Part shown: positions 4,815 to 35,544 of the stretch, one piece after another | Layout of the letters: each line of letters begins with the position of its first letter | How positions within the stretch are numbered: the stretch's first letter is position 1 | IMG/VR virus record: IMGVR_UViG_3300010392_001176 | Location: 1 to 64,000 of that record | DNA: 64,000 bases | DNA from: a virus | Reading direction: 5' to 3' (one strand) | Notes under the pieces: generated by a model | What the model was told of the DNA's origin: nothing | The model's database searches: none | Seen by the model: only the letters and a program-made list of their open reading frames with translations | Translations under genes and position numbers: made by a program

Positions 4815-4815
4815 G

Positions 4816-5001
4816 TTAGCTCCTTTCGATAGGATCAAATCCAACTAGCTTGTAAAGATCGTGCCATTCGCTTTTACAGTCCGTGCAATAGATAGGTTGT
4901 GAAGGATCACCATCAAAATCCCAACTATCACCTTCAATTTGGTCACTATTGCAAAATGGGCAATTCCCAGGATTCTCCAAATACTCTTCATTCGTTTTCA
5001 T
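4816..5001 (-). CDS. small zinc-ribbon protein
   Basis: 61 residues with CPFC (about 14-17) and CTDC (about 39-42) knuckles separated by an acidic Trp-containing loop, then WHDLYKLVGF. This arrangement is shared by short phage zinc-ribbon proteins (Lar/restriction-alleviation-like in layout), but the role is unproven. The ATG at 5001 has AAAGGAG spaced by five bases. Confidence 0.7.
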   Translation of the reverse strand: MKTNEEYLENPGNCPFCNSDQIEGDSWDFDGDPSQPIYCTDCKSEWHDLYKLVGFDPIERS

Positions 5002-13266: not shown

Positions 13267-13281
13267 CGGTCCTTTTTTTTT
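13252..13281 (+). terminator. rho-independent terminator
   Basis: 8-bp stem GGACCGCT/AGCGGTCC (13252-13259 with 13265-13272), 5-base loop, then nine T. It separates the small-protein run from the fibre operon. The 5' arm is the same as in the terminator at 7384. Confidence 0.9.
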
Positions 13282-13296
13282 GAAGGGGGGGAGAAC

Positions 13297-14270: not shown

Positions 14271-17200
14271 TGGCCACATCAAGACGCACGGCCACAAATG
14301 AGAATATAAGCACCTATGATAGTGGGGGCGGTCAAGACTACTCAGCCCTTGCTACCTGGGAAGCTGCTACAGATATAGATTTAGTCAGCGCAACTCAGTC
14401 TGAGGTCTTAGAGTGCTACGCTGGTTCTCACGATGATGAAATAGTAATTGATGGCGCGACTACGAATTCTTCGTATTTTAGGATAATTCGCCCTGCTTCC
14501 GGCGAAGGGCATGATGGCTATCCCCACCAGGACGGATCAGCGGCTTATTTTGTCACGACCACAAGCGACATAGATATGTTCGATGTGGTTGAAGCTAACT
14601 GCCAGATTCAAGACTTGATAATGAGTCTGGATCAAGATGGCGGCAGTATGTATTGCGCTGCCCTAACAGGTGACAACCAGCATTTAATCGGCTGTTTAGC
14701 TATCAATCCGATCAACATTGGCAGCGATTCTAAGGGTTTTAGAGAGAATGGTGGTAGTGGCGATACGATGTATTATATCAACTGTATCGCCATAGGCTGT
14801 GACGATGCTGCCTTTCAGTTCGATTCAGGAACAAGCTACGTCTATAACTGCCATGCCATTGATTCAGGTGAAGGATTCAATGAGAGTGGCGGCACAGTCA
14901 TTTGTAAGAATTGCCTGGGTAACGGTACTTTCGGATCGAGTGACTTTGATGGATCTTACGATGCTGCGAGTGAATATAACAGTTCCGGCGATGGCACGGC
15001 CCCAGGTACAAACAGCCGGATCAATCAAACCTTCGCCTTCTCGGACGCTGGCAACGATGATTTCCGGTTAGGCTACACCGATGGTGGGGCCAGGAATTTC
15101 GGTACGGATCTCAGCGCAGATGGCAATTTCGCTTTCGACGATGATATTGCCGATGGCGTGATGGGCGCGGGGAAAGCAGGGATCACGCGCCCGCAAGAGA
15201 CAGTATGGGATATAGGCTTTCACGAGCGCACGGAAAGTTCATCAAGCTCAAGTTCTTCATCCTGCTCAAGTAGCTTTTCATCCAGTTCCTTCTCATCTTG
15301 CTCATCCAGTTTTTCTAGCTCAAGTTCCTGCTCTAGCTCTTCTTTTTCATCATCATCGTCCAGCTTTTCCTCTTGTTCTTCTTCGAGTTCTTTTAGCTCA
15401 AGCTCTTCGAGCCTAGCTTCATTTTCTTCATCTTCATCCAGTTTTTCCAGTTCTTCTAGTTCCTACTCGCTGCCCTGTGTCAATGATTCAGACCATAAGC
15501 TCTTGCTCCCGATGGATGGCGCTGATGGACACACCTACTTTCAAGATGTGTCTTTAGGCGGCTTTCACGGTGCTGCAACGGTAGTAGGTAACGCAGAAGG
15601 TGATACTTCGGAGAAGAAATGGGGTACTGCTTCACTCTGGTTGCCTTCAACAAGTACCTCTAGCGCCGATGATTATCTCCAATTTGCCGATCATGCAGAT
15701 TGGGACGTTACTCAATATACTAATTTCACCATCCATGCTTGGATTAAATTAGTTAATTATTTTAATCGACAAGAGCCTATTGCTTCTCAGTACGAAGATA
15801 GTAGCAACGGATGGACAGTTAGACACGCTGGCGGTGCTTCTGATGGACTTTTCTTTTCACTCCGTTCTGGCGGCTCAAATATATTAAGTTTCGGTGCTGA
15901 TGGTGGGAGCATTACTGATGATAGTTGGCATCATGTGGCGCTGTGTAAAGTTGGCTCTGATTGGGGGCTCTATCTCGATGGTCAACAAACGTCTTATGGC
16001 TCTGGAAGTCCAACACAGACATTCGCTGCCCCGCTTAGTATAGGTGCATCGCCAACTGGCTTTACTAGCCCATATCAGTTAAATGGCTGGATTGACGAAT
16101 TTGATATTACACATGATAATTGCTTCGGAGCTGCGCCGAATAGCGGAGATACTGATACAATTCCAGTACCGCAAGCTCCATATCAGGTTTCTTACTCTTG
16201 CTCATCCTCATGCTCATCAAGTTCTTCCTTTAGTTCATCGAGTTTTTCATCAAGCTCAAGTTGCAGTAGCTCTTGCTCTTCGAGCTTTTCAAGTTCAAGT
16301 TCGTTCAGCTCATCGTCGTCTTGCAGTTCATCTTTTTCATCGAGTTCATCATGCTCAAGCAGCTCTTTCAGTTCGAGCTCGTGCAGCTCGTCGTTTTCAT
16401 CATCGTCTTGTTCTTCCTCTTACTCAAGTTCCAGCTCTTCGTCGAGCTTTTCTTCTTCTAGTTCAAGCTGTAGCTCATCGAGCTTTTCGTCCTCTTGTTC
16501 ATCGAGTTCTTCATTTTCTAGCTCATCATCTTCTTCGCCTTCATGCGTTCCACCTTCCTGGCGGTGGGCTGATGGTTCTCAGCTAATCGTCGGCACGATA
16601 AATACTGGCGTTTTCTGTGATACCCATGCCTGTGATCTTACTGAGTATGTAATCAATGAGATTTCAGGTGTTGGTATTCCAGCTTTCGATCAAAGATTCA
16701 CCTTTGAAAATGTACCGAAAGCAACTCTTGATGTATCCATTACGGGCTACTACAACGGCAATCCCGCTCATAACGTCAAAATAGCGATCTTTAATTACCA
16801 AACGCTGTTGTGGGATGATATGACAGGCGCAGCCCAGGACTTTCCATCACAAGCTACGCCCTCTAACTATGTATTTCCGCTCTCAGGTGCAGGAACACCG
16901 TCTGATTATGTGAGTGTTGGCAATCAGCTATCAATTAAGATCGACCATCGCTCTAACGGATCAGCCGGACACACATTTCACATGGATTGTGTGCATCTGA
17001 CCGATACAAGCTCTTCGAGTAGCAGTAGCTCCTTTTCGTCGAGCTCATCGAGCTTTTCATCAAGCTGCTCGTCCTCTTGCTCTTCAAGTTTTTCGAGTAG
17101 TTGCAGCTCATTTTCATCAAGCTCGTCGAGCTTTTCTTCTTCTAGCTCCTGCTCATCGTCTTTCTCTTCGAGCTGTTCATCAAGTTTTTCGTCGTCGTCG

Positions 17201-20200
17201 TCTTGTTCCTCTTCTTTTTCAAGCAGTTGCAGCTCTTCTTCTTCTAGTTTTTCGAGCAGCAGCAGCTCATACTCGTCGAGTTCATCATGTTCATCGAGTT
17301 CATTTTCATCATCATCATGTTCTTCGTCTTTTTCATCCTCATCCAGTTCCAGCTTCTCAAGTTCCTCATCTTCATTTTCCTCTTCTTCCTGTTCCTCTTC
17401 GTTTTCGAGCAGTTCATCTTCCTTTTCATCGAGTTCTTCAAGCTCGTCTTTTTCGAGTTCAAGTAGCTCTTTCTCATCTTCATCGAGCTCTTCTTGCAGC
17501 TCATCTTCGGCGGTATCATTTTCAAGCTCGTCCTCTTCGTCTTGTAGCTCATCATTCTCGTCGAGCTCATCGTCTTTTTCGAGCTCAAGCAGTTCCTTCT
17601 CGTCGAGCTGTAGCAGTTCCAGTTTTTCATCTTCATCTTCATCAAGTAGTTTTTCCAGCTCATCCTCTTGCTCATCGAGCTCTTTTTCTTCTTCAAGTTC
17701 TAGCTGTAGTTCATCGCTATCATTTTCGAGTTCTTCATCTTCGTCTTGTAGCTCGTCGAGTTTTTCATCCAGCTCATCGAGCTCTTTTAGCTCATCAAGC
17801 AGTAGTTTCTCCAGCTCATCCTGTTCCAGCTCTTTTTCTTCTTCGAGTTCATCTTTCTCATCGAGCTCTAGTTGTTCTTCATCTTTTTCATCTTGCAGTT
17901 CATCATCGGCAGTATCGTTCTCATCCTCATGCTCTTCCTCTTGCAGCTCGTCTTTCTCTTCCAGCTCATCATCGTTTTCGAGTTGCAGCAGCTCGTTTTC
18001 ATCGTCCAGCTCTTTTTCGAGTTCTTCATCCTGCTCAAGTTCTTTCTCATCGTCTTGTAGCAGCAGCTTTTCTTCATCCTCATCGTCTTTTTCTTCCAGT
18101 TCGAGCTCATTTTCATCTTCGTGCTCAAGCTCGTCTTTCAGCAGCTCATCAAGCTGCAGTAGCTCTTTCTCAAGTTCAAGCTCTTCTTTCTCATCCTCTT
18201 GCTCAAGTTGCTCATCGAGTTTCAGCAGCTCGTCGAGCTCATTTTCATCTAGCTCGTCCAGCTCATCTTTTTCGAGTTCGAGTTCATCATCTTCTTTCTC
18301 TTCTAGTTGCAGCTCGTCGTCCAGCTTTTCAAGTAGCTCAAGTAGTTCTTTTTCCAGCAGTTCTTTCTCATCGAGCTCGTTTTCATCTTCAAGCTCTTCA
18401 TTTAGCTCATCGAGCTCAAGTAGCTCTTTTTCTTCATCTTCTTCTTGTTCGAGTTCTTTCAGCTCGTCGTCCTTCTCGTCCAGCTCATCCTCATTTAGCA
18501 GCTCAAGCTGTTCTAGCTCGTTCTCGTCCTCTTGCTCTTCGAGCTTTTCATCTTCATCTTCGAGCTCTTCATTCAGCTCAAGTAGCTCTTTCTCATCTTC
18601 GAGTTCTTCTTTCAGCTCATCCTGTTCAAGCAGTTCTTTCTCATCCTCATCTTTTAGCTCATCTTCCAGCAGTTTCTCTTCCAGTTGTTCATCGAGCTCT
18701 TCATCACTCTGTCTTAGCGTTTCTTCATCTTCAAGCTGCTCATCTTGCGATTCGGTTTTCTCATCCAGCTCTTGTAGCTCATCCTCTTCAAGTTCGCCTT
18801 CGTGTACTACTGAAAGTGCTTACGGCCCCAATCTGTTCACTACGACTTGGTATGATTACGGCAGGGTGACGGTCAATGAGAACAGCATAGAGCAAGTCCA
18901 TACTGATGCTAGAAGATATGCCGGATTTGAATCACGCAAATTCGTTGCTCTATTCAGGCCAGGGGATCAGGATTCACAAGGGATCGAACAGCGATTTGTA
19001 ATTGGAAATCCAGCAGCTCCGGCTGTAATAGAACAATATCAATACTCTTTTTGGGTATATCCAGTTAATCGCAATAAGATCAGGACTAGACAGCGTGATG
19101 ATGAAGGTACAGAGATCACGCGCAACTATACTGGACTTATTCCGAATGCCTGGAATCAGATCAGCAGCCTTGTTAATATCCAGACAAATGTTAATGCGAA
19201 ATTCGCATGGCATTCAGGAGCGCAAGAATCCGGTACTTGGTACATTGATGAAGCCAGCTTACGCAAAGTTTGGTGTATTGGCTCATCTTGCTCTAGTTCC
19301 TGTGACTCAGCCTTTTCATCTTCGTCTTGTTCTTCGAGTGAATCTTCATTCTCAAGCTCTTGCAGCTCATGGTCGAGCAGTTGTTCCTCATCCTTCTCCA
19401 GCTCAAGCTCCTGTTCTTCTTCATTTTCATCTAGCTCTTCATTTAGTTCTTCGTCTAGCTCTTTCTCATCATCTTCCTGCAGCAGCTCTTTCTCATCATC
19501 GAGTTCTTCTTTTTCCAGCTCATGCAGCAGCTCTTCGTCTTGCGATTCGGCCTTTAGCTCAAGCTGCTCCAGTTCTTGTTTCTCAAGCTCATGCAGCAGC
19601 TCTTCTTCTTTTAGCAGCTCTTCATCTTGCTTCAGCTCATCGTGTTCGAGTTCTTCATCCTGTAACTCGGCTTTCTCTTCTTCTTGTTCCTCTAGCTGCT
19701 CATCTTCAAGCTGTTCATCTTCATCTTCGAGTGAGAGCTTCCAGGTATTGCAAGGCCAGTATTTCTATCCCAATAATGACAAGGGCGGCTGGACTGTTAC
19801 TCCTGTGGGATCTGGAACGACTATCGCTAGTCGAGTGGACAACGGCATAAATGGACCTGGACGACTTAATCTTGGTGGTGGGCCGGATGATACTAATGGA
19901 TTCCAAGGAAGTAATGATGCTTTCATTCAATTTAGACTTACAAATCCAGTTTTTCAGGGAGAAGCAATAGAAGTTCGGGCAACTATAAGGGGATTTGCTT
20001 TCTCAGCACCACCTGGACAGGTTGAAGTAGAATTCCTTAGCGATTCCTCTACTTCACATGGAACACGCACGATCAGCACTTTTACTGGTGTGCCTGCCAA
20101 CTACACGGTAGGATGGAGTCTTAATAAGACAGCGGCAGAGCTTACAGATGCACAATTAATAGTTACTTGCCAAGATGATTTCTGGAATGATCGAGTAACT

Positions 20201-23200
20201 GAGGTTGAGCTTCAAGTCATTATTGAAGGCTCATCTTCTAGTTCATCCTCTTGTAGCTCATCTTGTGACTCAGCATTCTCATCGTCCAGCTCTTCATCTT
20301 CGCTGAGTTCGGTGTCGGTAAGCAGCTCTTCTAGCTCCTGCGATTCGGCATTTTCATCTTCGTCTAGTTCATCATCGCAATCCTCTATTTCTTTCTCAGA
20401 TTCTTCTTCCTGCTCATCTAGCTCCTGCAGCTCTTCAAGCTCCTGCAATTCTGCCTTCTCATCTTCATCCAGCAGTTCTTGTTTCTCAAGTTCTTGTAGC
20501 TCAAGCTGCAGTAGTTCTTCATTCAGTTCATCTTGTTCTTCAAGCTCTTGTGACTCGGCATTCTCATCCTCATGCTCTTCGTCCTGCAGTAGTTCATTTA
20601 GCTGTAGTTCTTCTAGTTGCTCAAGCTGCTTTAGCTCTAGTTCCTCTTCGTCTTGCAGCAGTTCATTCTCTTCATCTTCAAGCTCATCCTGCGATTCCGC
20701 TTTCTCATCTTCATGTTCGAGTTCAAGTTCCAGCTTCTCATCGAGCTGTTCATCTTCATTCTCAAGCTCTAGTCCCTCAATATCATTCTCAAGCTGTAGC
20801 TCTTGCAGCTCATGTGATTCGGCCTTTAGCTCATCCAGTTCTTGCTCATCCAGTTTCTCAAGTAGCTGTAGCTCGTCATTCAGTTCAAGCTCTTTTAGTT
20901 CAAGCTCATTCTCTTCAAGCTCATCGAGCTTTAGCAGTTCGTCGAGTTGCTTTAGCTCATCCTCTTCCTTCTCAAGCTCTAGCTCTTCGTTCTCGTCGAG
21001 TTCATCCTGCTCCAGCTCTTTTAGCTCATGCAGCTCTTCCTTCTCGTCGAGTTCGTCTTGCTCAAGCTCTTTTAGTTCTTGCAGCAGCTCATTCTCATCG
21101 AGCTCCAGTTCATCGAGCCAGAGTTCCAGCAGCAGCTTTTCATCCTCAAGCAGTTCTTTCTCCAGCTCATCGTCCTCTTCTTCATGTTCGAGTTCGAGTA
21201 GCTTCAGCTCATCTAGTTCTTCTTTTTCCAGTAGCTCGTCGTCGTCGTTCTCTTCATCTTCGAGCAGCTTTTCTTCATCCAGTTCTTCTTTTTCAAGCAG
21301 CTCATCATGCTCAAGCAGTTCAAGCTCAAGCTCGTTCTCATCGAGCAGTTCTTCCTTTTCGTCGTCGTCGTTCTCTTCATCTTCGAGTTCATCTTTCTCA
21401 AGCTCATCCAGCTTCTCAAGCAGCTCATCTTGCGACACGCTTTGGGAACAGCATTTCTCCAATGATTCAACTGGCTGGCAATGCTACTTCATGTGCCAAT
21501 GGAGTGGATCTGCGTGGCAACCGAATACCGTGAACATGGGAATCGAAGTTCATTCCTCTGCTACTTGGCAAGTTGGCTACAGGCCGACCAAGGCCAGAGT
21601 AACGATTGCCAATATCACAGACACGCCCGTAAGAATTAGTATGTCGGATGCGATGGGATTCCCGCTTGGAGCTACAGTATCAGTCTTTACGCCTGGGACT
21701 TACGAGATCCCCCTTGTTTATTCTAGCGGAACCGATATTGAAAAATGCGATGAGATAAGTTCATCTACTGGCTTTGATCTGACAAATATCGAATTCTTGG
21801 TCTGCTCTTCATCATCAAGTAGCTGTAGCTCATCAAGTTCCTGCGATTCTGCCTTTAGCTCTTCCTCATCTTCGAGCTGCAGCAGTTCTTTCTCAAGCTC
21901 TTCGTTCTCAAGCTGTAGCTCAAGCTCATGCTCAAGCTCTTTCTCCAGCAGCTCAAGCTGTTCTTCCAGTTTAAGTTCATCAAGTTCCGGCTCTGCAAAT
22001 TATGGTTGGTTCTCATACTTAGACGACGATCATTGGGAGAATGGTGGTGGTATTTTTGCCTGGGATGGCGATTCTTGGGATAGTGGCTCTAGCTCAAATG
22101 GCACACTCCTAGTAAAGTCAGGCTCGACTTGGGCGCAAGGTCTTGTGCCAACTGCTTTCCGCGTGACTTTTAGCGGGCCAGCCGACATTAGTATGGAAGT
22201 AAAAGATGCTTCAAATGATGATTGGTGGTTCGATGATACTGATGATCTTGTTTCTGGACAAGAGCTTGCGCTTACCGATCCTGGCGAAGATATAGGTCGT
22301 ATTTGGTTCCACCGTTTTCTCGGTACTGCGATTGAAATTACCAATATCGAATTCTTCTTGCCCGACCCTGAATCTTCGTCGAGTAGTAGTTCTTGCTCCA
22401 GCTCAAGCTCTTTCTCAAGCTCAAGCTCCAGTTCTTTCTCAAGCAGCTCTTCATCCTTCTCAAGCTCCAGCTCAGAATCATCTTCAAGCAGCTCCTTCTC
22501 AAGCTCATCCAGTTTCTCGTCCTGTAGTTCTTCAAGCTCAAGCTCTTTCAGCTCATCTTCAAGTTCCAGTTCTTTCTCCAGCTCAAGCTCATCGCAATCC
22601 AGTTCCAGCTCAAGCTCCAGCGGAAGTTATGAATTGCAAGGTGAATTCATCGTACCGGATGAAGATGTAGCTTCGTCGGTTGCTACTTTTGGTAGCGGTA
22701 CTGCAAAATGGGATCGGCTGAATGATGGCATTATTAGCGGGACACCGGATGATACGAATGGAATCCTTGGTCTTGACGGTGATTTCCTAACGAGTGGTTT
22801 TATCAATCCTTCTTTTGCTGGAACCTGTTTAGAGATCAAGGTTCATGTACGCGGTAAATCCGATGGCGGCGTACTATCCGATGTTTGGTTCTCGCTATAT
22901 TCTGATGGAGCAAGTAGTGATGGCACGAATACGACCAGCTTTCCTACTGGCTCTTTTCAGACTCAGACCTTTACATACAGCATACAAAAGACAGCCGCGC
23001 AGCTTACAAATCTGAGGGTGCTTACGCAGTTTAAGGCTCCAAGTTTTGATGATCGAGTTTCAGAGATCGAAGTTGAGATTGTAAGGACTTCATCTTCGAG
23101 TTCATCAAGTAGCTGTAGCTCTTGCGATTCTGCTTTCTCTTCATCTTCGAGTTTCAGTAGCAGTTCCTTCTCAAGCAGCTCACACTCATCAAGCTCATCT

Positions 23201-25369
23201 TGCCTTGCTGGACAATGGGTACGAACCTTCGGCCTTTCTTATTGGAATTGTTTAGCGAATTGTAATTGGGATGGTGACTCGTACAATACCGCAGGGCCAG
23301 GGCTGGCGATCCAGACGACTAATAACGGATGGTATACGGATTTTCGACCAACCAAATGGAGAATCACGGTCACAGCTCCAGATACTTACACCCTGAGAGA
23401 TACTGCAGGAAATGTAATCGCAAGCGGGGCAGTTTCGGCGGGTGCTAATGAATTCGACATAGATTGGAGTAACAATCAAGATATAGGGCCAAGCGTTTCG
23501 CCTCAATTTTGGGGTAGAATCTCTAACGGTGCTTCCAGCGACATAACCAACATCGAATGGTTTGTCTGTGCTTCGAGTTCTTCATCATATTCCAGTTCAT
23601 GCTCAAGCTCTTCGCAAAGTTTTTCGAGTTCTTCTTGCTCTTCGAGTTTATTCGGTTCCAGCTTTCTTGTTCCAAATGCTGACGATGCACCTGACGATTG
23701 GGAATTAGATGGCGGAAGTTCTAAATGGGATTCGGTTAATAACGGCGTTGATACACCCGACGACGATGAAATTATCTATGCGTATGAGGACGACACGCTT
23801 GAGCAACAGTTTGATCTCACGAATCCAGTTTTCGCACCCACGGCTGTTTCGGTACGGATGCGGGCGTATATAAGAGGACGGATATGGAATGGTACTGCTA
23901 ACTCCGTCGATGTAGAGTTCTATGATGGAGCAAGCCTGATAGGATCGACTACCACGCCTAATTTTCCTGATGCGGGTGCATCTCAGGGCGTTTGGGGGAA
24001 TGAGTACACGCCTTGGGTCAACACGGTCAAGACAGAAGCAGAGTTGGCCGATCTGAAAATCTTAGTCAGGTCGAATGCTCCCTCTGATGAAGTCGATCTT
24101 TCAGAGATCGAAGTTGAGATAGAGTACGGCCCACCTAGTTCAAGCTCCAGCTCTTGCTCCAGCTCGTTCTCAAGCCCTTCGAGTTCTTCATCTTCACAGA
24201 GCTTTGAAGCATTGCAAAGCCGATTCTCAGTTCCCAATGGCGATCCTAGCCAATCAATTTCAACTTATGGATCTGGTAGTGGACGTTGGGGCCGCACAAA
24301 TGATGGCATCTTCGGCGGTACGCCTGATGATACGAATGGAATTTACGGCCTTGAAGATGATTTTTATCTGGCAAACATGACTAACCTGAATTATGGGGGA
24401 ACGTCTTTAGAGATCAAAGTTCATGTTCGAGCGCAAAACTTTAGTGCAGGATTCGATACTGACTTCGATGTGCTGCTTTATACAGACGGCTCTACTCTTG
24501 ATAAGCAAGAGAATTTCGGGACTTCTGATAGTTGGCAGAATTTCACAATGTCAACAACTATCCAAAAGACGGCAGCACAGCTTAATGGAATGAGAGTCAG
24601 GGTTATATGTAAAGATCCAAGTTTCGATACGCGAATTTCAGAAATAGAAGTCGAAGTTGTTCTGCCTTCATCTTCAAGCTCATCTTCCTCTTTCTCTAGT
24701 TGTTCTTCAAGCAGTAGCTCTTGTGATTCTGCCTTCTCATCTTCGTCTAGTTCATCCTCTTTCAGCTCCAGCTCTTCGAGTTCCTGTGACTCGGCATTCT
24801 CATCTTCATGTAGCTCATCGTCTTTCAGCTCAAGCTCTAGCTCATCGCAAAGTTTCTCGACGTTTCAGACGCGAATATGGATGGTCCCAACAATACCGGA
24901 TGATGAGAGTGGTACTTTTACTTTCGGCGTTGGAACCGCCCCTGGCAATATCAATGATGGCATTTTTGGCCCTGGCGCTTCACCGGATGATAGCAATGGA
25001 ATAGGCGGTAGTCAGGGTGATTATTATGAAGCTGATCTATGGCCTAATGTTCCTTCGAGTATGCCCCAAACTATAAAAATTAAATCTCATTGGCGACTCA
25101 AGGCCGATTCTGGTAGTGGCGATGTGGACGTACAGTTGCGTACCTATGGTTCACCCATAGATCCAGGCGATACCAATATCAATCCTACTACGAGTTGGGC
25201 TACTTATACTGTAGAGCATGATGCACAGTTGACTTGGATAGAGGTTCAAAATCTGGAAATGTTCATTGCATTTGAGGATGCAGCTAACGCTGATCGACTT
25301 TCCGAAATGGAAGTTGAGCTTATTTTTGCTCCATCTTCGAGTTCGTCCAGTTCTTCAACTTCGACTTAG
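14270..25369 (+). CDS. giant serine-rich modular fibre/adhesin-like protein (3699 aa)
   Basis: Order of parts (approximate residues): 1-321 beta-helix-like domain (DYSALATWEAATDID start); Ser linker; 402-641 LamG/concanavalin-like domain; Ser linker; 759-914 beta-sandwich; Ser linker of about 595 residues; 1510-1672 carbohydrate-binding-like domain; then five copies of one ~155-residue domain (A: 1823, 2785, 3129, 3312 and 3528 onward) and three of another ~125-residue domain (B: 2389, 2575 and 2979 onward), separated by Ser linkers. Linkers are Ser runs broken by Phe, Cys and occasional Tyr, with CDSAF/CNSAF recurring about 14 times. Domain A ends in a shared (L/V)SEIEVE-type strand; B ends in a TNIEFF-type strand. 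Most likely a receptor-binding or surface-display fibre. All linkers are in frame with no stop. Confidence 0.85.
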   Translation: MATSRRTATNENISTYDSGGGQDYSALATWEAATDIDLVSATQSEVLECYAGSHDDEIVIDGATTNSSYFRIIRPASGEGHDGYPHQDGSAAYFVTTTSDIDMFDVVEANCQIQDLIMSLDQDGGSMYCAALTGDNQHLIGCLAINPINIGSDSKGFRENGGSGDTMYYINCIAIGCDDAAFQFDSGTSYVYNCHAIDSGEGFNESGGTVICKNCLGNGTFGSSDFDGSYDAASEYNSSGDGTAPGTNSRINQTFAFSDAGNDDFRLGYTDGGARNFGTDLSADGNFAFDDDIADGVMGAGKAGITRPQETVWDIGFHERTESSSSSSSSSCSSSFSSSSFSSCSSSFSSSSSCSSSSFSSSSSSFSSCSSSSSFSSSSSSLASFSSSSSSFSSSSSSYSLPCVNDSDHKLLLPMDGADGHTYFQDVSLGGFHGAATVVGNAEGDTSEKKWGTASLWLPSTSTSSADDYLQFADHADWDVTQYTNFTIHAWIKLVNYFNRQEPIASQYEDSSNGWTVRHAGGASDGLFFSLRSGGSNILSFGADGGSITDDSWHHVALCKVGSDWGLYLDGQQTSYGSGSPTQTFAAPLSIGASPTGFTSPYQLNGWIDEFDITHDNCFGAAPNSGDTDTIPVPQAPYQVSYSCSSSCSSSSSFSSSSFSSSSSCSSSCSSSFSSSSSFSSSSSCSSSFSSSSSCSSSSFSSSSCSSSFSSSSCSSSYSSSSSSSSFSSSSSSCSSSSFSSSCSSSSSFSSSSSSSPSCVPPSWRWADGSQLIVGTINTGVFCDTHACDLTEYVINEISGVGIPAFDQRFTFENVPKATLDVSITGYYNGNPAHNVKIAIFNYQTLLWDDMTGAAQDFPSQATPSNYVFPLSGAGTPSDYVSVGNQLSIKIDHRSNGSAGHTFHMDCVHLTDTSSSSSSSSFSSSSSSFSSSCSSSCSSSFSSSCSSFSSSSSSFSSSSSCSSSFSSSCSSSFSSSSSCSSSFSSSCSSSSSSFSSSSSSYSSSSSCSSSSFSSSSCSSSFSSSSSSSFSSSSSSFSSSSCSSSFSSSSSSFSSSSSSSSFSSSSSSFSSSSSSSCSSSSAVSFSSSSSSSCSSSFSSSSSSFSSSSSSFSSSCSSSSFSSSSSSSSFSSSSSCSSSSFSSSSSSCSSSLSFSSSSSSSCSSSSFSSSSSSSFSSSSSSFSSSSCSSSFSSSSSSFSSSSSCSSSFSSCSSSSAVSFSSSCSSSCSSSFSSSSSSFSSCSSSFSSSSSFSSSSSCSSSFSSSCSSSFSSSSSSFSSSSSSFSSSCSSSSFSSSSSCSSSFSSSSSSFSSSCSSCSSSFSSSSSSFSSSSSSSSFSSSSSSSSFSSSCSSSSSFSSSSSSSFSSSSFSSSSFSSSSSSFSSSSSSSSFSSSSSCSSSFSSSSFSSSSSSFSSSSCSSSFSSSCSSSFSSSSSSSSFSSSSSFSSSSSSFSSSCSSSSFSSSSFSSSSSSFSSSCSSSSSSLCLSVSSSSSCSSCDSVFSSSSCSSSSSSSPSCTTESAYGPNLFTTTWYDYGRVTVNENSIEQVHTDARRYAGFESRKFVALFRPGDQDSQGIEQRFVIGNPAAPAVIEQYQYSFWVYPVNRNKIRTRQRDDEGTEITRNYTGLIPNAWNQISSLVNIQTNVNAKFAWHSGAQESGTWYIDEASLRKVWCIGSSCSSSCDSAFSSSSCSSSESSFSSSCSSWSSSCSSSFSSSSSCSSSFSSSSSFSSSSSSFSSSSCSSSFSSSSSSFSSSCSSSSSCDSAFSSSCSSSCFSSSCSSSSSFSSSSSCFSSSCSSSSSCNSAFSSSCSSSCSSSSCSSSSSSESFQVLQGQYFYPNNDKGGWTVTPVGSGTTIASRVDNGINGPGRLNLGGGPDDTNGFQGSNDAFIQFRLTNPVFQGEAIEVRATIRGFAFSAPPGQVEVEFLSDSSTSHGTRTISTFTGVPANYTVGWSLNKTAAELTDAQLIVTCQDDFWNDRVTEVELQVIIEGSSSSSSSCSSSCDSAFSSSSSSSSLSSVSVSSSSSSCDSAFSSSSSSSSQSSISFSDSSSCSSSSCSSSSSCNSAFSSSSSSSCFSSSCSSSCSSSSFSSSCSSSSCDSAFSSSCSSSCSSSFSCSSSSCSSCFSSSSSSSCSSSFSSSSSSSCDSAFSSSCSSSSSSFSSSCSSSFSSSSPSISFSSCSSCSSCDSAFSSSSSCSSSFSSSCSSSFSSSSFSSSSFSSSSSSFSSSSSCFSSSSSFSSSSSSFSSSSSCSSSFSSCSSSFSSSSSCSSSFSSCSSSFSSSSSSSSQSSSSSFSSSSSSFSSSSSSSSCSSSSSFSSSSSSFSSSSSSSFSSSSSSFSSSSSSFSSSSSCSSSSSSSSFSSSSSSFSSSSFSSSSSSSFSSSSSFSSSSSCDTLWEQHFSNDSTGWQCYFMCQWSGSAWQPNTVNMGIEVHSSATWQVGYRPTKARVTIANITDTPVRISMSDAMGFPLGATVSVFTPGTYEIPLVYSSGTDIEKCDEISSSTGFDLTNIEFLVCSSSSSSCSSSSSCDSAFSSSSSSSCSSSFSSSSFSSCSSSSCSSSFSSSSSCSSSLSSSSSGSANYGWFSYLDDDHWENGGGIFAWDGDSWDSGSSSNGTLLVKSGSTWAQGLVPTAFRVTFSGPADISMEVKDASNDDWWFDDTDDLVSGQELALTDPGEDIGRIWFHRFLGTAIEITNIEFFLPDPESSSSSSSCSSSSSFSSSSSSSFSSSSSSFSSSSSESSSSSSFSSSSSFSSCSSSSSSSFSSSSSSSSFSSSSSSQSSSSSSSSGSYELQGEFIVPDEDVASSVATFGSGTAKWDRLNDGIISGTPDDTNGILGLDGDFLTSGFINPSFAGTCLEIKVHVRGKSDGGVLSDVWFSLYSDGASSDGTNTTSFPTGSFQTQTFTYSIQKTAAQLTNLRVLTQFKAPSFDDRVSEIEVEIVRTSSSSSSSSCSSCDSAFSSSSSFSSSSFSSSSHSSSSSCLAGQWVRTFGLSYWNCLANCNWDGDSYNTAGPGLAIQTTNNGWYTDFRPTKWRITVTAPDTYTLRDTAGNVIASGAVSAGANEFDIDWSNNQDIGPSVSPQFWGRISNGASSDITNIEWFVCASSSSSYSSSCSSSSQSFSSSSCSSSLFGSSFLVPNADDAPDDWELDGGSSKWDSVNNGVDTPDDDEIIYAYEDDTLEQQFDLTNPVFAPTAVSVRMRAYIRGRIWNGTANSVDVEFYDGASLIGSTTTPNFPDAGASQGVWGNEYTPWVNTVKTEAELADLKILVRSNAPSDEVDLSEIEVEIEYGPPSSSSSSCSSSFSSPSSSSSSQSFEALQSRFSVPNGDPSQSISTYGSGSGRWGRTNDGIFGGTPDDTNGIYGLEDDFYLANMTNLNYGGTSLEIKVHVRAQNFSAGFDTDFDVLLYTDGSTLDKQENFGTSDSWQNFTMSTTIQKTAAQLNGMRVRVICKDPSFDTRISEIEVEVVLPSSSSSSSSFSSCSSSSSSCDSAFSSSSSSSSFSSSSSSSCDSAFSSSCSSSSFSSSSSSSQSFSTFQTRIWMVPTIPDDESGTFTFGVGTAPGNINDGIFGPGASPDDSNGIGGSQGDYYEADLWPNVPSSMPQTIKIKSHWRLKADSGSGDVDVQLRTYGSPIDPGDTNINPTTSWATYTVEHDAQLTWIEVQNLEMFIAFEDAANADRLSEMEVELIFAPSSSSSSSSTST

Positions 25370-25406: not shown

Positions 25407-25925
25407 ATGTACGATCTAAATTATTACGAAAATTTACTGAGGATTCACAGCGCCACGGCTGAAGAGATCAGCAAAAGGCGCTGGTTGTTTTTGAGCGATC
25501 ACATTCAGCAGCTCAGTAACGTGCTGGATTATGGATCTGGTGTCGGCTGGTTTCGAGCATGGCGGCCCCCAGGAGTGACCGTCTGGAGCTATGATTTGGG
25601 CCTATATCCACAAACAGGGATCGACATAGTTAGCTATGACGTTATCTGTTTTTGGGACGTTCTGGAGCATATTAGGGACTTCAAGGAGATCGAGCCGATC
25701 CTGGCGCTCTCCAAGCATGTCGCTTGTACAGTCCCGATTGTGCCGGAAGATGGCTTGAAGATGTGGAAGCATTTCAAACCAGGGGAACATTTGCATTATT
25801 TCACTCAAGAATCCCTGGTTGCGCTCTTTGATAAATTTGGCTTCACTCCATTGGCTAAAGATGATGTTGAATGCCCCCCACGCAAAGATGTTACCACCTT
25901 TCTTTTTGGGAGATCCCAATGCTAG
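25407..25925 (+). CDS. SAM-dependent methyltransferase (class I)
   Basis: 172 residues. Motif I VLDYGSGVGWF (39-49) is the SAM-binding glycine-rich loop; YDVICFWDVLEHI is the motif IV region and GEHLHYFT the following loop, as in small methyltransferases linked to sugar or glycan modification. It is shorter than typical enzymes (about 200-250) but the core is complete. It opens the sugar-modification cassette behind the serine-rich protein. The likely substrate is a glycan, not shown by sequence. Confidence 0.75.
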   Translation: MYDLNYYENLLRIHSATAEEISKRRWLFLSDHIQQLSNVLDYGSGVGWFRAWRPPGVTVWSYDLGLYPQTGIDIVSYDVICFWDVLEHIRDFKEIEPILALSKHVACTVPIVPEDGLKMWKHFKPGEHLHYFTQESLVALFDKFGFTPLAKDDVECPPRKDVTTFLFGRSQC

Positions 25926-26134
25926 ATTTCATTGAGATGAGAAAGCAGCTCCAAAGAGCTCTTGCCGCTGGCAAGATGTTCATCACAATTAGCTACATGG
26001 ACGAAGAGGAAACTATTCAGCATTATTACTTAACTCACAACTTCCCACGGGAAGATATTATGATAAGCCTTGAACACCTTTCTAAAGAGGTTCTTCCCGA
26101 AACCCTGGAATTAGATGAGGAAAATAATTCTTAG
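25919..26134 (+). CDS. small hypothetical protein
   Basis: 71 residues from the ATG at 25919, which has GGGAG about six bases upstream and overlaps the methyltransferase stop. Short alpha/beta protein (MFITISYMDEEETIQHYYLTHNF) with an acidic tail. Its last bases overlap the start of the glycosyltransferase at 26115. No family recognised. Confidence 0.6.
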   Translation: MLDFIEMRKQLQRALAAGKMFITISYMDEEETIQHYYLTHNFPREDIMISLEHLSKEVLPETLELDEENNS

Positions 26135-27041
26135 AAACGGACAAAGCCCTGGCGATGTCTTGACAATGACTAGGGGTGTCGCTGATCTTTGTCATTCTTA
26201 TCCTGATTTTTTGGTCGATGTAAGAAGTCCCTGCGCTGAGATATGGGAAAATAATCCCTGGCTTCACCCGCTAGATGAAAATGATGAAGAGGTAGAACAG
26301 TTCGATATTGGCTATGATGCCATTCATCAAAGCGGTGTTACAGGAGTTCACTTCAGCGATGGTTTCAGGATGGATATTGAAAAGAAGCTCGATCTCAAGA
26401 TCCAATCATCAGGGATCTTGCCTGAATTATGGATAAGTGATGATGAGAAAAGCTGGATAAATCAGGCTGAAGTTGAGTTCGGCTGGCGAGACAAATTCTG
26501 GCTCTTGAATGCTGGATCTAAACCAGACAATGCCTTGAAGCAATATCATCGCTGGCAGGAAGTCGTCGATATTCTCACAAGGTTCTTTGACAACCGAATA
26601 AAAATCGTTCAGATCGGCCATGAATCCCACAATCATCCAGAGCTCACGGGCGTTCTTTCGCTTGTAGGCAAAACGGATCTCCGGCAACTCATAAGATTAT
26701 GCCATTGGTCTGAGGGAACAATAGGGCCAATCAGCTTTCAATTCGTGATGGCTGCAGCACTCCAGAAACCTTATGTTTGTGTGGCAGCAGGCAAAGAAGG
26801 TGTGCGCTGGCATCTCTATCCTCATGGGCGCTATCTCTACACAAACGGCTGTCTTGAATGCTGTGAGTGGGATGGCTGTTGGCGCGGCGGCGGCCACACT
26901 AAATGTCTGACGATGGAGAATGGATCTCCGAAATGTTTCACCATGATTAAGCCCTATATGATCGCTGACTCTGTGAAAATGTACTACGAAGGGGGAAAGC
27001 TAAACTTTGATTGGAGAGTACCTAGAGAAGAAGCTGGTTGA
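26115..27041 (+). CDS. glycosyltransferase family 9-like (heptosyltransferase-type)
   Basis: 308 residues. GDVLTMTRGVADLCHSYPD near the N-terminus is the substrate-binding start of GT9 enzymes; FWLLNAGSKPDNALKQYHRWQEVVDIL in the middle is their nucleotide-sugar domain signature, followed by the GKTDLRQLIRLCHWSEGTIGPISF block with the family's conserved switch. The C-terminus is unusually Cys-rich (LECCEWDGCWRGGGHTKC), which could bind metal. GT9 enzymes add heptose or similar sugars. Part of an overlapping operon. Confidence 0.75.
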   Translation: MRKIILRNGQSPGDVLTMTRGVADLCHSYPDFLVDVRSPCAEIWENNPWLHPLDENDEEVEQFDIGYDAIHQSGVTGVHFSDGFRMDIEKKLDLKIQSSGILPELWISDDEKSWINQAEVEFGWRDKFWLLNAGSKPDNALKQYHRWQEVVDILTRFFDNRIKIVQIGHESHNHPELTGVLSLVGKTDLRQLIRLCHWSEGTIGPISFQFVMAAALQKPYVCVAAGKEGVRWHLYPHGRYLYTNGCLECCEWDGCWRGGGHTKCLTMENGSPKCFTMIKPYMIADSVKMYYEGGKLNFDWRVPREEAG

Positions 27042-27771
27042 GTATCTTGAACCAGGGCAGCGTGTCCTGATTCGATTCGGCCACGGATGGGGCGACACGC
27101 TAATGTTCATGCCGATCTTCTGGCGGCTGCAGGATCTCTACCCACAAACTAATTTCGATCTCTATCTTGAATGTGGTCAGGAATGTATCTTTGAATCATT
27201 TCCTGACAAAGAAGGACCGGATCACGACTATGTTTTCCATCTTGATTTTCCTATGGCAGAGGGATCTGGACTCACTAAGGCGCAGAAATGCTGCATAGAT
27301 GAGCTAGGAATTGAACCTTTTTCCGAAATTGCGCCGCTTCCAAAAGTTGATTCACCATTTGTATCGTTGCATTTTCAAGGCACAGCATTACCTAATTCTG
27401 TGAATTGTCCAGAAGAGGTAGCACGGCAAATCTGGCAGGAGTGTTTAGATGCTGGCAAAATCCCTATTGAAGCCCATTTTAGGCATTTGTTTCACAATCC
27501 TATTAACACTCGGTATGGCTTCGTTGATCGTCATGTACGGTACTGTGATGCTAATCTCAATAATCTCATTGGGCTTATACAAAATTCTTTCGCCTTTGTC
27601 GGCATCGCTTCTGGCCCTTTTGTTACTGCTCTATCAATCATGCCTACAAGGACGTTTTACTTGGAACGGAATCACGCGGTCACGGATTATGTGAAGCACC
27701 TGGATATTGCTGCAGCTCATGTGGATCACTATGAGAATGGAACGGTGAAAGAATGGCTCGATACGCTATAG
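27007..27771 (+). CDS. GT-B-fold glycosyltransferase-like protein
   Basis: 254 residues. VLIRFGHGWGDTLMFMPIFWRLQDLYP matches the N-terminal G(x)GDxLxxxPxxxxLxxxYP pattern of heptosyltransferase-like GT-B enzymes, and VGIASGPFVTALS resembles the later conserved loop. Shorter than complete GT9 enzymes (about 320-350). A TTG start at 27007 follows GGGGGAAAG, and it overlaps the previous gene by 35 bases. It may work with, or be a reduced paralogue of, the gene before it. Confidence 0.65.
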   Translation: MIGEYLEKKLVEYLEPGQRVLIRFGHGWGDTLMFMPIFWRLQDLYPQTNFDLYLECGQECIFESFPDKEGPDHDYVFHLDFPMAEGSGLTKAQKCCIDELGIEPFSEIAPLPKVDSPFVSLHFQGTALPNSVNCPEEVARQIWQECLDAGKIPIEAHFRHLFHNPINTRYGFVDRHVRYCDANLNNLIGLIQNSFAFVGIASGPFVTALSIMPTRTFYLERNHAVTDYVKHLDIAAAHVDHYENGTVKEWLDTL

Positions 27772-28610
27772 TTTTTAGCACTACGGCTGGATACATGCCA
27801 GGAACAAACGGGCTCCTGAATGCTTTAGAACACTATGGGATGGGCCACATTGATCCTTATGTAATCATGGTCAATTTTGATCTCCCCCAGGATTACAAAG
27901 ATCAATGGCCCAAAGTGACCTTTGAAGCCCTGGAGCCTAGTTTCTGGCCCCATTCAATGAATGCAGGATGGTATTGCAGATACGCTCCGCCCAATCGTGC
28001 GATTGAATTGCTCAATGATTATGACGCAGTACAGATAAGCGGAGCTGATGTGTGTCCCTTGAATGACTACACACATTGGTTCGATGTTGCCGTAAAGACT
28101 CATAACCCTGTGCTGTCCACTAATGAACAAGGTTGCGCTGATTATTCACGAATGACTCCAAAGGGAGAGCATCCTTATGTGCATACCTGGATGGTCCCTT
28201 ACGCTGATATACCAGCTATTTTTACCCCAAGCCATAGGGGGCTTCTGGCCACAAATTTTGAGTATCAGGAAAGGGACGATTGCAGATTGAGCTGGATGGA
28301 TGGACTCAACTATTCCCTGCGCGATTGGGATCAGAAGGTCAATGTTGTTCCTGGCAACCTGTGGGTTTTCAATCTCAGCTCTCAAGGGAAAGTTGTCAGG
28401 GATGGAGACAAGATATTCTACAACGAGCAGCGCATGAATTCATTTCATAGGAAATATTGGATCGCTGGTGTGTGCAAAAGATACCTGGCTCCAGACAATC
28501 CCAACTGTATGCACAACCATTTGATCTTCAATCAGATGTGGAATTTCTTCAACAGAGATTGTCGAGTTGTCTGGACTGAAGGCGTGGACGAGTGGGACGG
28601 AAAACAATAG
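27753..28610 (+). CDS. GT-A-like glycosyltransferase, DxD motif degenerate
   Basis: 285 residues. The N-terminus (RYAIVFSTTAGYMPGTNGLLNALEHYG) aligns by eye with the GT8-like protein at 29571. Where that protein has YDAICLLDADMF, this one has YDAVQISGADVC, so the first Asp of the metal-binding DxD is replaced. That implies either loss of metal-dependent catalysis or a different mechanism. Overlaps both neighbours by 19 bases. Probably a sugar-binding or transferase partner in the same pathway. Confidence 0.6.
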   Translation: MARYAIVFSTTAGYMPGTNGLLNALEHYGMGHIDPYVIMVNFDLPQDYKDQWPKVTFEALEPSFWPHSMNAGWYCRYAPPNRAIELLNDYDAVQISGADVCPLNDYTHWFDVAVKTHNPVLSTNEQGCADYSRMTPKGEHPYVHTWMVPYADIPAIFTPSHRGLLATNFEYQERDDCRLSWMDGLNYSLRDWDQKVNVVPGNLWVFNLSSQGKVVRDGDKIFYNEQRMNSFHRKYWIAGVCKRYLAPDNPNCMHNHLIFNQMWNFFNRDCRVVWTEGVDEWDGKQ

Positions 28611-29581
28611 TTACCATTGTTGGCACTAGACCACAATTCATCAAGGCGGCTGCGCTGGATCTTGATGATGTGTTGATCCACACAGGCCAGCATTATGGTT
28701 ATGGCCTGTCAAAGAAAATATGGGATGGCTTGAAGCTGAGAGAGCCTGATTATGTACTCTCCTGTGCAAGCTATGATCCCACGATTATGATGAGCCGACT
28801 GATTGACCAGATCGGCTCTATTCTTATCCGACAAAAACCTGATTATGTAATTGTTATAGGAGATTGCAATTCAACATTGGGCGGCGCTCTGGCTGCAGAC
28901 CTACTCAAGATTCCGGTTATTCATATTGAAGCTGGATTGAGATGCTTCGACATGAGTATGCCGGAAGAAAGAAACCGTAAGCTGGTCGATCATATAGCCC
29001 AGGTGAATTTCTGTATCGGCCATAAGGATAAATTTCAGCTTATAAGTGAACGGTGTCTTGGTAAGATTCATGTGGTCGGGGATCTCCTTTATGATTCGAT
29101 GCTCTGCTTCATAGAAAAAGCGGTCCCGATGTTGGGCGATTACTTCCTGGCGACAGTACACAGGGAAGAGAACACGAATCATCATCTTGATGAGATCCTT
29201 GATGGGCTGAATGCACTCAGCCAGAAAGTCCTGTTCCCAAAGCATCCACGAATCAAGCTGGAAAAGAAATATAAAAATATCGAATTCATGGGGCCAGTTG
29301 ATTATCTCACAATGTTAAGCCTGCAGCTCGGCGCTGATATGATCTTTACAGACTCCGGCGGCATTCAGCGTGAAGCTGTTTGGCTTGGCAAGCCGTGTGT
29401 TTTACTGAGGGACAAAACAGAATTCCCACAATATGAACGATACGGCTATGTGTTCTTGGCTGGACACGACAAGGAAAAGATAGCTGGAGCTGTGAGCCAT
29501 GAATGGCCCAAGTATCCTTTTGAACATGGTCAGGATGGTCAGGCGGCAAAGCGAATAGCGGAGATCATTCATGGGCTCTAA
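28592..29581 (+). CDS. wecB: UDP-N-acetylglucosamine 2-epimerase (non-hydrolysing)
   Basis: 329 residues. All signature blocks are present: GTRPQFIK at the N-terminus, HTGQHY, GDCNSTLGGALAA (catalytic Asp), HIEAGLRCFD and MPEERNRKLVDHI (catalytic Glu residues), TVHREEN (catalytic His), and FTDSGGIQREAVWLGKPC for the nucleotide. It interconverts UDP-GlcNAc and UDP-ManNAc in the cytosol. Slightly shorter than the usual ~370 residues. GTG start overlapping the previous gene. It would supply ManNAc-type donor sugar to the neighbouring transferases. Confidence 0.9.
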   Translation: MGRKTIVTIVGTRPQFIKAAALDLDDVLIHTGQHYGYGLSKKIWDGLKLREPDYVLSCASYDPTIMMSRLIDQIGSILIRQKPDYVIVIGDCNSTLGGALAADLLKIPVIHIEAGLRCFDMSMPEERNRKLVDHIAQVNFCIGHKDKFQLISERCLGKIHVVGDLLYDSMLCFIEKAVPMLGDYFLATVHREENTNHHLDEILDGLNALSQKVLFPKHPRIKLEKKYKNIEFMGPVDYLTMLSLQLGADMIFTDSGGIQREAVWLGKPCVLLRDKTEFPQYERYGYVFLAGHDKEKIAGAVSHEWPKYPFEHGQDGQAAKRIAEIIHGL

Positions 29582-30479
29582 GTATGCCTTCATCGTGGCG
29601 GCCAGCGCGAATTATATTCCTGGCCTTGTGGCAATGTTCAATAGTCTGAAACGACTTGACAATGAGCATGACGTTATCCTGATTTCATTTCGTATGCCGG
29701 AATGGTTTCTTGAATCACTCAAGGCATATTCGTACACGATAAGGGTTATTGAAACAGAGGGTGAAAATCAGACCCATCAGACAGCTATTGAGCGATTTCG
29801 CGTAGCTGTGGAAATCGGCCATGAGTATGATGCGATCTGCCTGCTCGATGCCGATATGTTTCTGGAAGCAAATGTAGATGTTTTCTTTCTGGCTGGCAGT
29901 AAGGGGCTGATTGTTACTGGCAGCAACGGCATGATTATCAATTTCAATAAAAAGTATCAGGAACAATATGATTGCTACCTGGATCAAGATGAATGGCCCT
30001 ATCCTCAGATCCATACTACTGTGCCTATTTTTCTTGATACTCGTAACCTTGATTGGTTTGATGCTCTTTATAAGTCCAGGCGGATAGATGCTTGGGATGA
30101 TTTTCTTTACTTGAATCTCTTGGGAATCAAGATGGGCAAGTACAAGAAGATGATCTGTATGCCGCCCTATATGTTCACCGGAATTCATCATTGGCAGATG
30201 AAGCCGGAAACTGCAGTTATGGAAAAAGGGGATCTGCTGCTTTCCGGTACAGAAGAACAAATCTACATGATTCATGGCAAGTGGTGGGATAAGGGCTGGC
30301 TGCAGGATCTAGTGCCAACAATGGAAAGATACTGGCACGATGAAGAGATCAGTTCCAGGGGCCAGGGAAGAACACATAATGCAATTAACTCAATACTCAA
30401 CCGCTTTCGCAACCTTTTAACTGAAGGAGATCAATCATGGCTAACACAGTTACCAGAGGGGGCAGTTTCCTTACCCTGA
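29571..30479 (+). CDS. glycosyltransferase family 8-like
   Basis: 302 residues. YAFIVAASANYIPGLVAMFNSLKRL is the start of a GT-A nucleotide-binding fold; YDAICLLDADMFLEANVD carries the DxD metal site; a later MIHGKWWDKGW supplies the downstream His typical of GT8 enzymes. These retaining transferases include those that extend O-glycans on serine-rich adhesins. Last gene of the sugar cassette; its end overlaps the next gene by 43 bases. Confidence 0.75.
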   Translation: MGSKYAFIVAASANYIPGLVAMFNSLKRLDNEHDVILISFRMPEWFLESLKAYSYTIRVIETEGENQTHQTAIERFRVAVEIGHEYDAICLLDADMFLEANVDVFFLAGSKGLIVTGSNGMIINFNKKYQEQYDCYLDQDEWPYPQIHTTVPIFLDTRNLDWFDALYKSRRIDAWDDFLYLNLLGIKMGKYKKMICMPPYMFTGIHHWQMKPETAVMEKGDLLLSGTEEQIYMIHGKWWDKGWLQDLVPTMERYWHDEEISSRGQGRTHNAINSILNRFRNLLTEGDQSWLTQLPEGAVSLP

Positions 30480-33528: not shown

Positions 33529-35544
33529 ATGGCTGAAAATCTGAAGCTCAAAAAACAGGCCATGCCAGATTTGACTGAGAAGGAAGCACAAGAAGTCAAT
33601 TCTCTCCTACCGCCAGAGGGAGATGAGGAAGTTGGCCATACTGCCTTTGCAATCCTTGAAGCTGTTATCAGAGACAAGGATAGAAAGCGGCTGCCACAAA
33701 AATGGTTCCGTAATTACGAAATGTATAGGAATCATCATTGGCGCTCTGGTCAATCTGCTCCCATACCGCTGGCTTCTATCAGCCTTATAAATACCCACGT
33801 TGAACGCACGACCAATATTCTTACAGATAACAATCCGACATTTGATGTAGTTGGCGAAAATGATGAAGTCGCTGATAGACTACATTCAACAGCACGCTTT
33901 TGGTGGAATGAAACTGAGCAACAAAGTGTATTCGCTGATAGTGTCAAAATGGCCGAAGTCCACGGGACCACCATTGAGAAAGTTATATTTAATCCATCGC
34001 TGAATAATGGCCTGGGCGAAGTCGAGACAATTGTTGTAGATCCGCATAACTTTGGCTTTTGGCCGCTCAATGAGAAGAAGGCTGAGAAGTGGGAAGCGGC
34101 TCTGCATTTCTACACAATGCCTGTGAATCAAGCCCGCCGTAAATGGCCGTCCATGAAAAAGCTCATCAAGCCTGATTCTGAATGGAAAAAACAACTCGGA
34201 GAATTAAGGCGAGAGATCCACGGCGGATCTTCCAAACAATTACCGCGTGGCAGCTATGGTGATTTTGCTCGTGACCATGCTTTTCTAAAAGGTAATCCAG
34301 CGATCTTGAGCGTCATGGGCCGTGGTGATGAGGTATTGATCCTAGAGCTATGGGTTAAAGACTACACGCTAGTCAAAGAACAGATGAATGAAGGCATAGC
34401 TGAGTTGGATTTATCAACTGGCCAATTTGAAATCACAGAGCCGCCCATACTTGATAAAGTCCCTAAGTACCCAGGCTTTGTCAGAGTGGTTACAACGTGC
34501 AATGGCGGCGATGTTGTACTGAATGACAGGCCAAATCCTAGCATCAATCCTACCTTACCCAAGGAGAAATTAGCTCAAACCTTTCTCTATAATAGATTCC
34601 CTTTTACGCTGACACCTTCAACTAAAGATCCGGTAAGTCCGTGGGGTTATTCTGCGATAGAACAGTTAGAGCAAATTAACATTGAAATAGATAAGTGCAT
34701 GAGTCAATTAAATTACATGAAAGATCGTATGGCTCGATCTCCATTGATTAACCCGAAAGATTCAATGATACCCAATTCTGATTTCAGTAATGCAGCTCGT
34801 ATTGTTAATCCGAAGAATAGTGTAGTTGCCAAGGCTATTCGCTTCATGGAAAGTCCACCTGTTCAAAATGATATTCAGCTCATCTTAGGTGTATATCGTG
34901 AGCTCTTTGATAAGATTGCCGGAACCTTTGATCTCACAGATCCCCAGGTAATGAAAGGTCGGCTTGCCTTTAAGACCGTGGCTGCTCTCTTAGAAAATAC
35001 TCAAACTATGGTTAGAGGAAAAATCAGAAGCTATGGCCGTATGGTTCGAGATCGCGGCAGAATGTATATCTCTCATGTGCAAAATTGGTACACCGAAGAG
35101 CGTTTCTTTTTCCTAATAGAAAAGGGTGTGCCAACTCAAGGTAGCATTGTGGGGGCTGAATCTATTGAGCCAATTCACTTCCAGGTAGTAAGCGGCTCAA
35201 CCATGCCGATGTCTCGGCTGCAACAAAGAGAAGAAGCCTTGGAGTTGTTTACTGCTCAAGCTATAGGAATACGGGAATTACTTGAAGCTCTGGAATGGCC
35301 AGATCGTGCTGAGATTGCATCGAAGATGGAGATGGGTGTGGCTGGTCCACTCATTGAAAGAATGCAAGGCTTGGCGGTAGATCCGCGAGTGATTCAAACA
35401 GTACAGGAAGTATCTCAGATGGATGAAAGCACCTACAACGCATTATTGCAACAGGTAAAAGAATTTCAAGGTGAACAGGCTCAACAAGGAGCTCAAGGAC
35501 TACCCGCGCCACAAGGCGGCGGCGCTGGTGGGGGAGAATTTTAA
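33529..35544 (+). CDS. portal protein
   Basis: 671 residues. The wing/stem layout and blocks such as RNYEMYRNHHWRSGQ, SLINTHVERTTNILTDNNPTFDVVG and, near the middle, PVSPWGYSAIEQLEQINIEIDKCMSQLNYMKDRM fit large portal proteins of podovirus-like phages. The C-terminus is Gln/Gly-rich. It forms the dodecameric ring through which DNA passes and to which terminase docks. Position after terminase agrees. Good ribosome-binding site (AGGAG). Confidence 0.85.
   Translation: MAENLKLKKQAMPDLTEKEAQEVNSLLPPEGDEEVGHTAFAILEAVIRDKDRKRLPQKWFRNYEMYRNHHWRSGQSAPIPLASISLINTHVERTTNILTDNNPTFDVVGENDEVADRLHSTARFWWNETEQQSVFADSVKMAEVHGTTIEKVIFNPSLNNGLGEVETIVVDPHNFGFWPLNEKKAEKWEAALHFYTMPVNQARRKWPSMKKLIKPDSEWKKQLGELRREIHGGSSKQLPRGSYGDFARDHAFLKGNPAILSVMGRGDEVLILELWVKDYTLVKEQMNEGIAELDLSTGQFEITEPPILDKVPKYPGFVRVVTTCNGGDVVLNDRPNPSINPTLPKEKLAQTFLYNRFPFTLTPSTKDPVSPWGYSAIEQLEQINIEIDKCMSQLNYMKDRMARSPLINPKDSMIPNSDFSNAARIVNPKNSVVAKAIRFMESPPVQNDIQLILGVYRELFDKIAGTFDLTDPQVMKGRLAFKTVAALLENTQTMVRGKIRSYGRMVRDRGRMYISHVQNWYTEERFFFLIEKGVPTQGSIVGAESIEPIHFQVVSGSTMPMSRLQQREEALELFTAQAIGIRELLEALEWPDRAEIASKMEMGVAGPLIERMQGLAVDPRVIQTVQEVSQMDESTYNALLQQVKEFQGEQAQQGAQGLPAPQGGGAGGGEF

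Follow-up and report, generated by a model that had tools for sequence, protein, structure and literature searches.

The analysed stretch of DNA (hereafter the window; 64,000 nucleotides, positions 1 to 64,000) is part of the 65,814-base IMG/VR virus record IMGVR_UViG_3300010392_001176. On its plus strand, positions 25407-30479 encode six enzymes and one small conserved ORF, each overlapping the next head to tail: a methyltransferase, a GT9-like, a GT-B-like and a degenerate-DxD GT-A glycosyltransferase, a nucleotide-sugar 2-epimerase and a GT8-like glycosyltransferase. This cassette starts 38 nt past the stop codon of the gene for a 3,699-aa protein with poly-Ser linkers; at its end lies a small-protein gene, followed by the terminase genes. 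An earlier note on this DNA had proposed these enzyme families, their arrangement in a single overlapping operon and their place directly behind the Ser-rich protein, all of which is borne out by the ORFs, profiles and structures, less firmly in the case of the GT-B-like enzyme. The features of the locus are as follows.

14270-25369, plus strand: 3,699-aa poly-Ser-linker protein, the proposed substrate (ORF, linker statistics, Laminin_G_3 match)
25407-25925, plus strand: class I SAM methyltransferase, MT (Methyltransf_23, E 1e-15)
about 25919-26134, plus strand: small conserved protein of about 71 aa, MLDFIEM... (conserved in relatives)
26115-27041, plus strand: GTB1, glycosyltransferase with predicted GT9 fold (family Pfam match, model fold, alignment)
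27007-27771, plus strand: GTB2, GT-B-like glycosyltransferase, probably GT9-related (profile-profile comparison, conserved G-x-GD motif)
27753-28610, plus strand: GTA1, GT8-like GT-A enzyme with a degenerate DxD motif, GADV (profile comparison with GTA2, alignment)
28592-29581, plus strand: predicted non-hydrolysing UDP-sugar 2-epimerase (Epimerase_2, PDB matches, active-site motifs)
29571-30479, plus strand: GTA2, glycosyltransferase with predicted GT8 fold and an LLDADM metal-binding motif (model fold, alignment)

The small ORF, which is absent from the earlier note, is conserved in the related loci L002, L004, L005, L008 and L015, and its start codon was picked from relatives. No cassette protein contains a TM segment (KD19 of at least 1.8), and a Pfam scan of these proteins yields no Gtr matches; unlike phage serotype-conversion loci (GtrA/GtrB/Gtr), the cassette includes neither a membrane flippase nor a membrane glycosyltransferase. 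Elsewhere in the window, a 2,030-aa late protein without a PHROG or Pfam match is encoded at 46995-53087, and the minus strand carries genes for a phage integrase (58836-59966), RecT and YqaJ within 58836-63995, so the phage is probably temperate.

GTB1 is the most conserved enzyme of the cassette and the candidate initiating Ser O-glycosyltransferase. On its own, the window protein matches nothing in Pfam; among the 13 members of its family, 5 match Glyco_transf_9 (PF01075; best 2.2e-13). The modelled fold (pLDDT 82.5) is that of GT9, with structure matches to 3tov (Z 24.1), WaaF (Z 20.5) and TibC (Z 19.8). The GD motif, Gly13-Asp14, is invariant in all 13 aligned sequences, and the range of the model alignment puts Asp14 near Asp-110 of TibC, a GT9 enzyme whose adhesin substrates are glycosylated on Ser and not on Thr (PMC4358343). 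GTB1 resembles TibC and Aah (BAHT, GT9) in its predicted fold, the putative catalytic Asp of the N-lobe, a C-lobe Cys cluster (invariant Cys 249, 250, 255, 264 and 274) that may correspond to their Cys-rich finger, its presumed cytosolic location and its encoding beside the proposed protein substrate. Unlike these enzymes, it has its catalytic domain right at the N-terminus (residues 1-295 of the model align on TibC 96-391, so that residue 1 corresponds to TibC 96) and lacks the N-terminal beta-barrel, and its proposed substrate is a poly-Ser phage protein. The iron finger was rejected as evidence of BAHT membership, since a comparable group of Cys residues occupies this position in ordinary GT9 enzymes too. 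Judged by the features that define the family, GTB1 is not a BAHT, given the missing barrel and the lack of a significant match to NCBIfam TIGR04414, for which no GTB1 sequence scores above the cut-off (1 of the 13 members matches at E 0.011, and the sequence from G011 gives a partial match at 1e-4).

The other glycosyltransferases fall into two groups. GTB2, which starts with TTG (ATG at the equivalent position in L027), has no Pfam or PDB match, and is probably GT9-related according to a profile-profile comparison with the GTB1 family (E 2.8e-5, probability 74) and its conserved G-x-GD motif. For GTA2, the model (pLDDT 84) has a GT8 fold, with glycogenin (Z 17.5), LgtC (Z 17.0) and GlyE (Z 16.8; also a weak profile match, E 0.023) tied at about 17; Glyco_transf_8 is matched by 3 of the 16 members of the family (best 4e-6), and the DAD motif is invariant in the family alignment. 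GTA1 carries GADV at the position of its relatives' DADM and, as judged by profile comparison (E 8.8e-21), is a GT8-type paralogue of GTA2.

The predicted epimerase matches Epimerase_2 (E 1.9e-74), and its motifs GTRPQFIK, GDCNST, HIEAGLR, MPEERNR, HRE and DSGG are largely invariant among six sequences. The best PDB match, 8sxv (UDP-GlcNAc3NAcA 2-epimerase; 1.1e-68, 235 bits), is nearly tied with the next one, 4neq (archaeal UDP-GlcNAc 2-epimerase; 1.8e-66, 228 bits), so that the product may be either ManNAc- or ManNAc3NAcA-type. The ManNAc-type donor suggested in the earlier note is less well supported than the core of that proposal: the top match is to the enzyme acting on UDP-GlcNAc3NAcA, and many cassettes have no epimerase. 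An IMG/VR scan with the epimerase as a single protein returns no match.

About 1,725 residues of the 3,699-aa protein lie in Ser-rich linkers that separate some 12 globular domains, one of which (residues 414-630) matches Laminin_G_3 (8.6e-16), a LamG/ConA-lectin-like domain. Neither a signal peptide nor a TM segment nor a hydrophobic N-terminus is found in this protein. The earlier note spoke of a fibre, and the protein is likely to be a virion fibre because of the lectin-like LamG domain and the late-gene position, from which we infer its location on the virion. The Ser codons of the linkers come from both the TCN and the AGY families (AGY 31%), and neighbouring Ser residues share a codon at a frequency of 0.132, below the expected 0.185. 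Relative to single-base changes, Thr is depleted (9 observed versus about 77 expected), and Phe (164 versus 24) and Cys (124 versus 48) are enriched. Phe or Cys breaks the linkers every 3-6 residues; Thr, Pro and Arg are avoided. The codon mixing, the scarcity of identical neighbouring Ser codons and the avoidance of Thr indicate that the linkers are under selection for Ser itself at the protein level, not products of repeat slippage. Mixed Ser codons combined with Thr avoidance are what a Ser-specific enzyme would require; the Ser-specific acceptor of TibC (PMC4358343) matches the Thr-poor linkers, which is a parallel, not proof.

Scans with the GT-A enzyme and the terminase retrieve 14 loci, of which some overlap or share a contig. 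In the close relatives, a giant Ser-rich gene directly precedes MT wherever the upstream side is present, and the order poly-Ser, MT, GTB1, GTB2, GTA1, GTA2 is kept; because of this conservation, the operon order is not due to chance. In L015, GTB1, GTB2 and GTA2 are 88-90% identical to those of the window, compared with about 67% for the terminase. The middle slot varies: in L008, L012 and L015, GTA1 is replaced by a homologue of about 27% identity with an intact DADM motif, L008 and L015 have a CxxC protein in place of the epimerase, and L012, with its DADM-type GT-A enzyme, has no epimerase. On the evidence of this variation, the cassette is a conserved core with an exchangeable outer module, in which the epimerase is accessory. 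The joint replacement of GTA1 and the epimerase in relatives suggests that GTA1 uses the epimerase product. The variant cassette of L012 also contains a 190-aa ORF (722-1294) with almost no Ser, which may be due to chance.

A scan with the GT8 family identifies other phages, with GTA2 52-64% identical, most of which hold MT, GTB1, GTB2, a GTA1-like gene and GTA2; in most of these distant phages, no relatives of the window terminase, portal or capsid are detectable. Every distant phage with GTA2 identity of at least 50% also encodes poly-Ser proteins. On one 140-kb contig (L028), four such proteins flank a single cassette (1873-4839 and 13137-19050), one of them of 358 aa with 68% Ser. A second set of loci, fetched with the diverse GT9 family after the hypothesis had been framed, comprises 37 loci, many of them new. 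Clustering of GTB1 in IMG/VR at 80% identity gives 21 clusters, mostly on unrelated phage backbones; MT is found in most cassettes, and several clusters repeat the order poly-Ser, MT, GTB1.

The survey of homologue neighbourhoods that the earlier note had called for confirms the pairing. With a poly-Ser ORF defined by a 40-aa window of at least 65% Ser, such an ORF is present on the contig in 18 of the 21 GTB1 clusters and within 10 kb in 15 of them, versus 2 of 126 control loci (1.19 Mb, 1,370 ORFs). The controls consist of 6 loci obtained with a random 16-mer and 120 obtained with a Ser-Phe DNA pattern, nearly all of the latter chance matches; the pattern-based set leans to Ser-rich matches and is thus conservative. 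For the 10-kb comparison, Fisher P = 5.7e-14, with control loci that are shorter than many test contigs and sets that are not matched for habitat. These two points favour an ecological reading, namely that large environmental phages often carry both poly-Ser proteins and glycosyltransferase cassettes without a functional link between them. Such a coincidence is highly improbable: in several lineages the genes for poly-Ser protein, MT and GTB1 are immediately adjacent and identically ordered, and P is still 3.5e-10 after length adjustment, calculated with the upper bound on the control rate.

Exceptions to the pairing are of several kinds. In G021 and G022, the GT9 enzyme stands alone with no poly-Ser gene on the contig, and the G019/G020 contigs end before any such gene. 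A chromosomal GTB1 relative (37%) from Rhodocytophaga aerolata (L037, 10001-10948) has no poly-Ser neighbour and lies beside large uncharacterised proteins; it could be ancestral or have another use. Together, these cases indicate that a GTB1-type enzyme can serve elsewhere. In G004, G005 and G017, the poly-Ser gene is 13-63 kb away. Two phages with remote GTB1/GTA2 relatives, G010 and G011, have in common a small protein (13636-14271 and 34820-35338, respectively) ending in about 25 pure Ser residues, reminiscent of C-terminal virion glycosylation sites.

Once the linkers are removed, most globular parts of poly-Ser proteins from different lineages show no relationship to each other, and the linkers are alike; the linker is thus what these proteins have in common, which marks it as the probable substrate. 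This recurrence bears on an alternative in which the cassette glycosylates one or more other virion proteins, such as the capsid or the tail tube, and the poly-Ser protein is merely a nearby late gene. In mycobacteriophages, phage-encoded glycosyltransferases do act on the capsid and the tail tube (PMC12363180), and the poly-Ser genes of G004, G005 and G017 are distant, but the association with poly-Ser proteins holds across backbones that, in most lineages, have no detectable relatives of the window capsid, portal or terminase, and the linkers are the feature that keeps recurring; we consider this alternative unlikely.

Remodelling of the host surface, by lysogenic conversion or receptor masking, is less probable still. 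It would be in keeping with a temperate phage (integrase at 58836-59966) and with a GT9 family that includes LPS heptosyltransferases, but it leaves the poly-Ser association unexplained, and the cassette sits inside the late structural operon. The absence of TM segments from the cassette speaks against it as well; together with the absence of a signal peptide from the proposed substrate, it does not fit serotype-conversion cassettes and is consistent with a cytosolic modification that precedes virion assembly. It is very improbable that the cassette puts sugars on phage DNA bases as a defence against restriction: no base-modifying partner gene is present among the genes scanned, the cassette is located in a structural operon and no GT9 enzyme is known to act on DNA. 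The precedent in favour of this idea is that virus-encoded glycosyltransferases hypermodifying DNA are known, as cited in PMC12619734.

Taken together, the enzyme folds and families, the operon layout and the recurrent poly-Ser pairing in otherwise different phages argue that the phage uses the cassette to O-glycosylate, in the cytosol, the Ser-rich linkers of the neighbouring 3,699-aa protein, an interpretation to which we assign a probability of roughly 0.68. In this system, GTB1 would add the first sugar to Ser, the glycan chain would be lengthened by GTB2, GTA1 and GTA2, the 2-epimerase would make one extra donor, probably for the neighbouring variable GT8-like enzyme, and MT would cap the sugars by O-methylation. 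The outcome would be stiff, protease-resistant glycan-brush linkers that space lectin-like domains on the virion. The earlier proposal that the phage O-glycosylates its own fibre linkers is thus strongly supported in its core by the co-occurrence, by the linkers being the sole shared part in most lineages and by the Ser-specific composition, from which we infer the glycosylation itself.

In bacteria, Ser-rich adhesins are glycosylated by neighbouring glycosyltransferases. Like the loci of such adhesins (GlyE/PsrP type), the window combines a Ser-rich protein with an adjacent glycosyltransferase cassette that includes GT8-like enzymes; unlike them, it is phage-borne, its Ser-rich protein has no signal peptide and the putative initiator is GT9-like, not of the GtfA/GtfB type. 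The mycobacteriophages Che8, Corndog and Myrna use their own glycosyltransferases on their own virion proteins (PMC12363180, PMC12619734), and the same is proposed here, with the differences that the target would be poly-Ser linkers, that the cassette is larger, with its own epimerase and methyltransferase, and that three of the cassette glycosyltransferases have no isolate relatives (tblastn against INPHARED with GTA1, GTA2 and three GTB1 versions). Virion glycosylation in phages and glycosylation of bacterial Ser-rich adhesins are already known; what is likely to be new is a poly-Ser-linked, modular and widely distributed phage cassette, and no description of poly-Ser linkers with glycosyltransferase cassettes in phages was found in the open-access papers searched.

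More tentatively, and with somewhat less than even confidence, the cassette and the linker proteins may form a modular, poly-Ser-specific O-glycosylation unit that has spread through many unrelated phages, the GT9-led core and swappable outer-sugar genes letting each phage alter the glycan of its own adhesive fibre. Few phages have been shown to glycosylate their virions, and little is understood of the targets; the pairing of a mobile cassette with a substrate that can be recognised would provide a sequence rule for predicting sugar-coated phage proteins, and may yield compact enzymes with which simple linkers could be glycosylated specifically on Ser. If correct, this interpretation would describe the phage equivalent of the hyperglycosylation of adhesins in bacteria and explain why proteins of environmental phages contain very long tracts of Ser.
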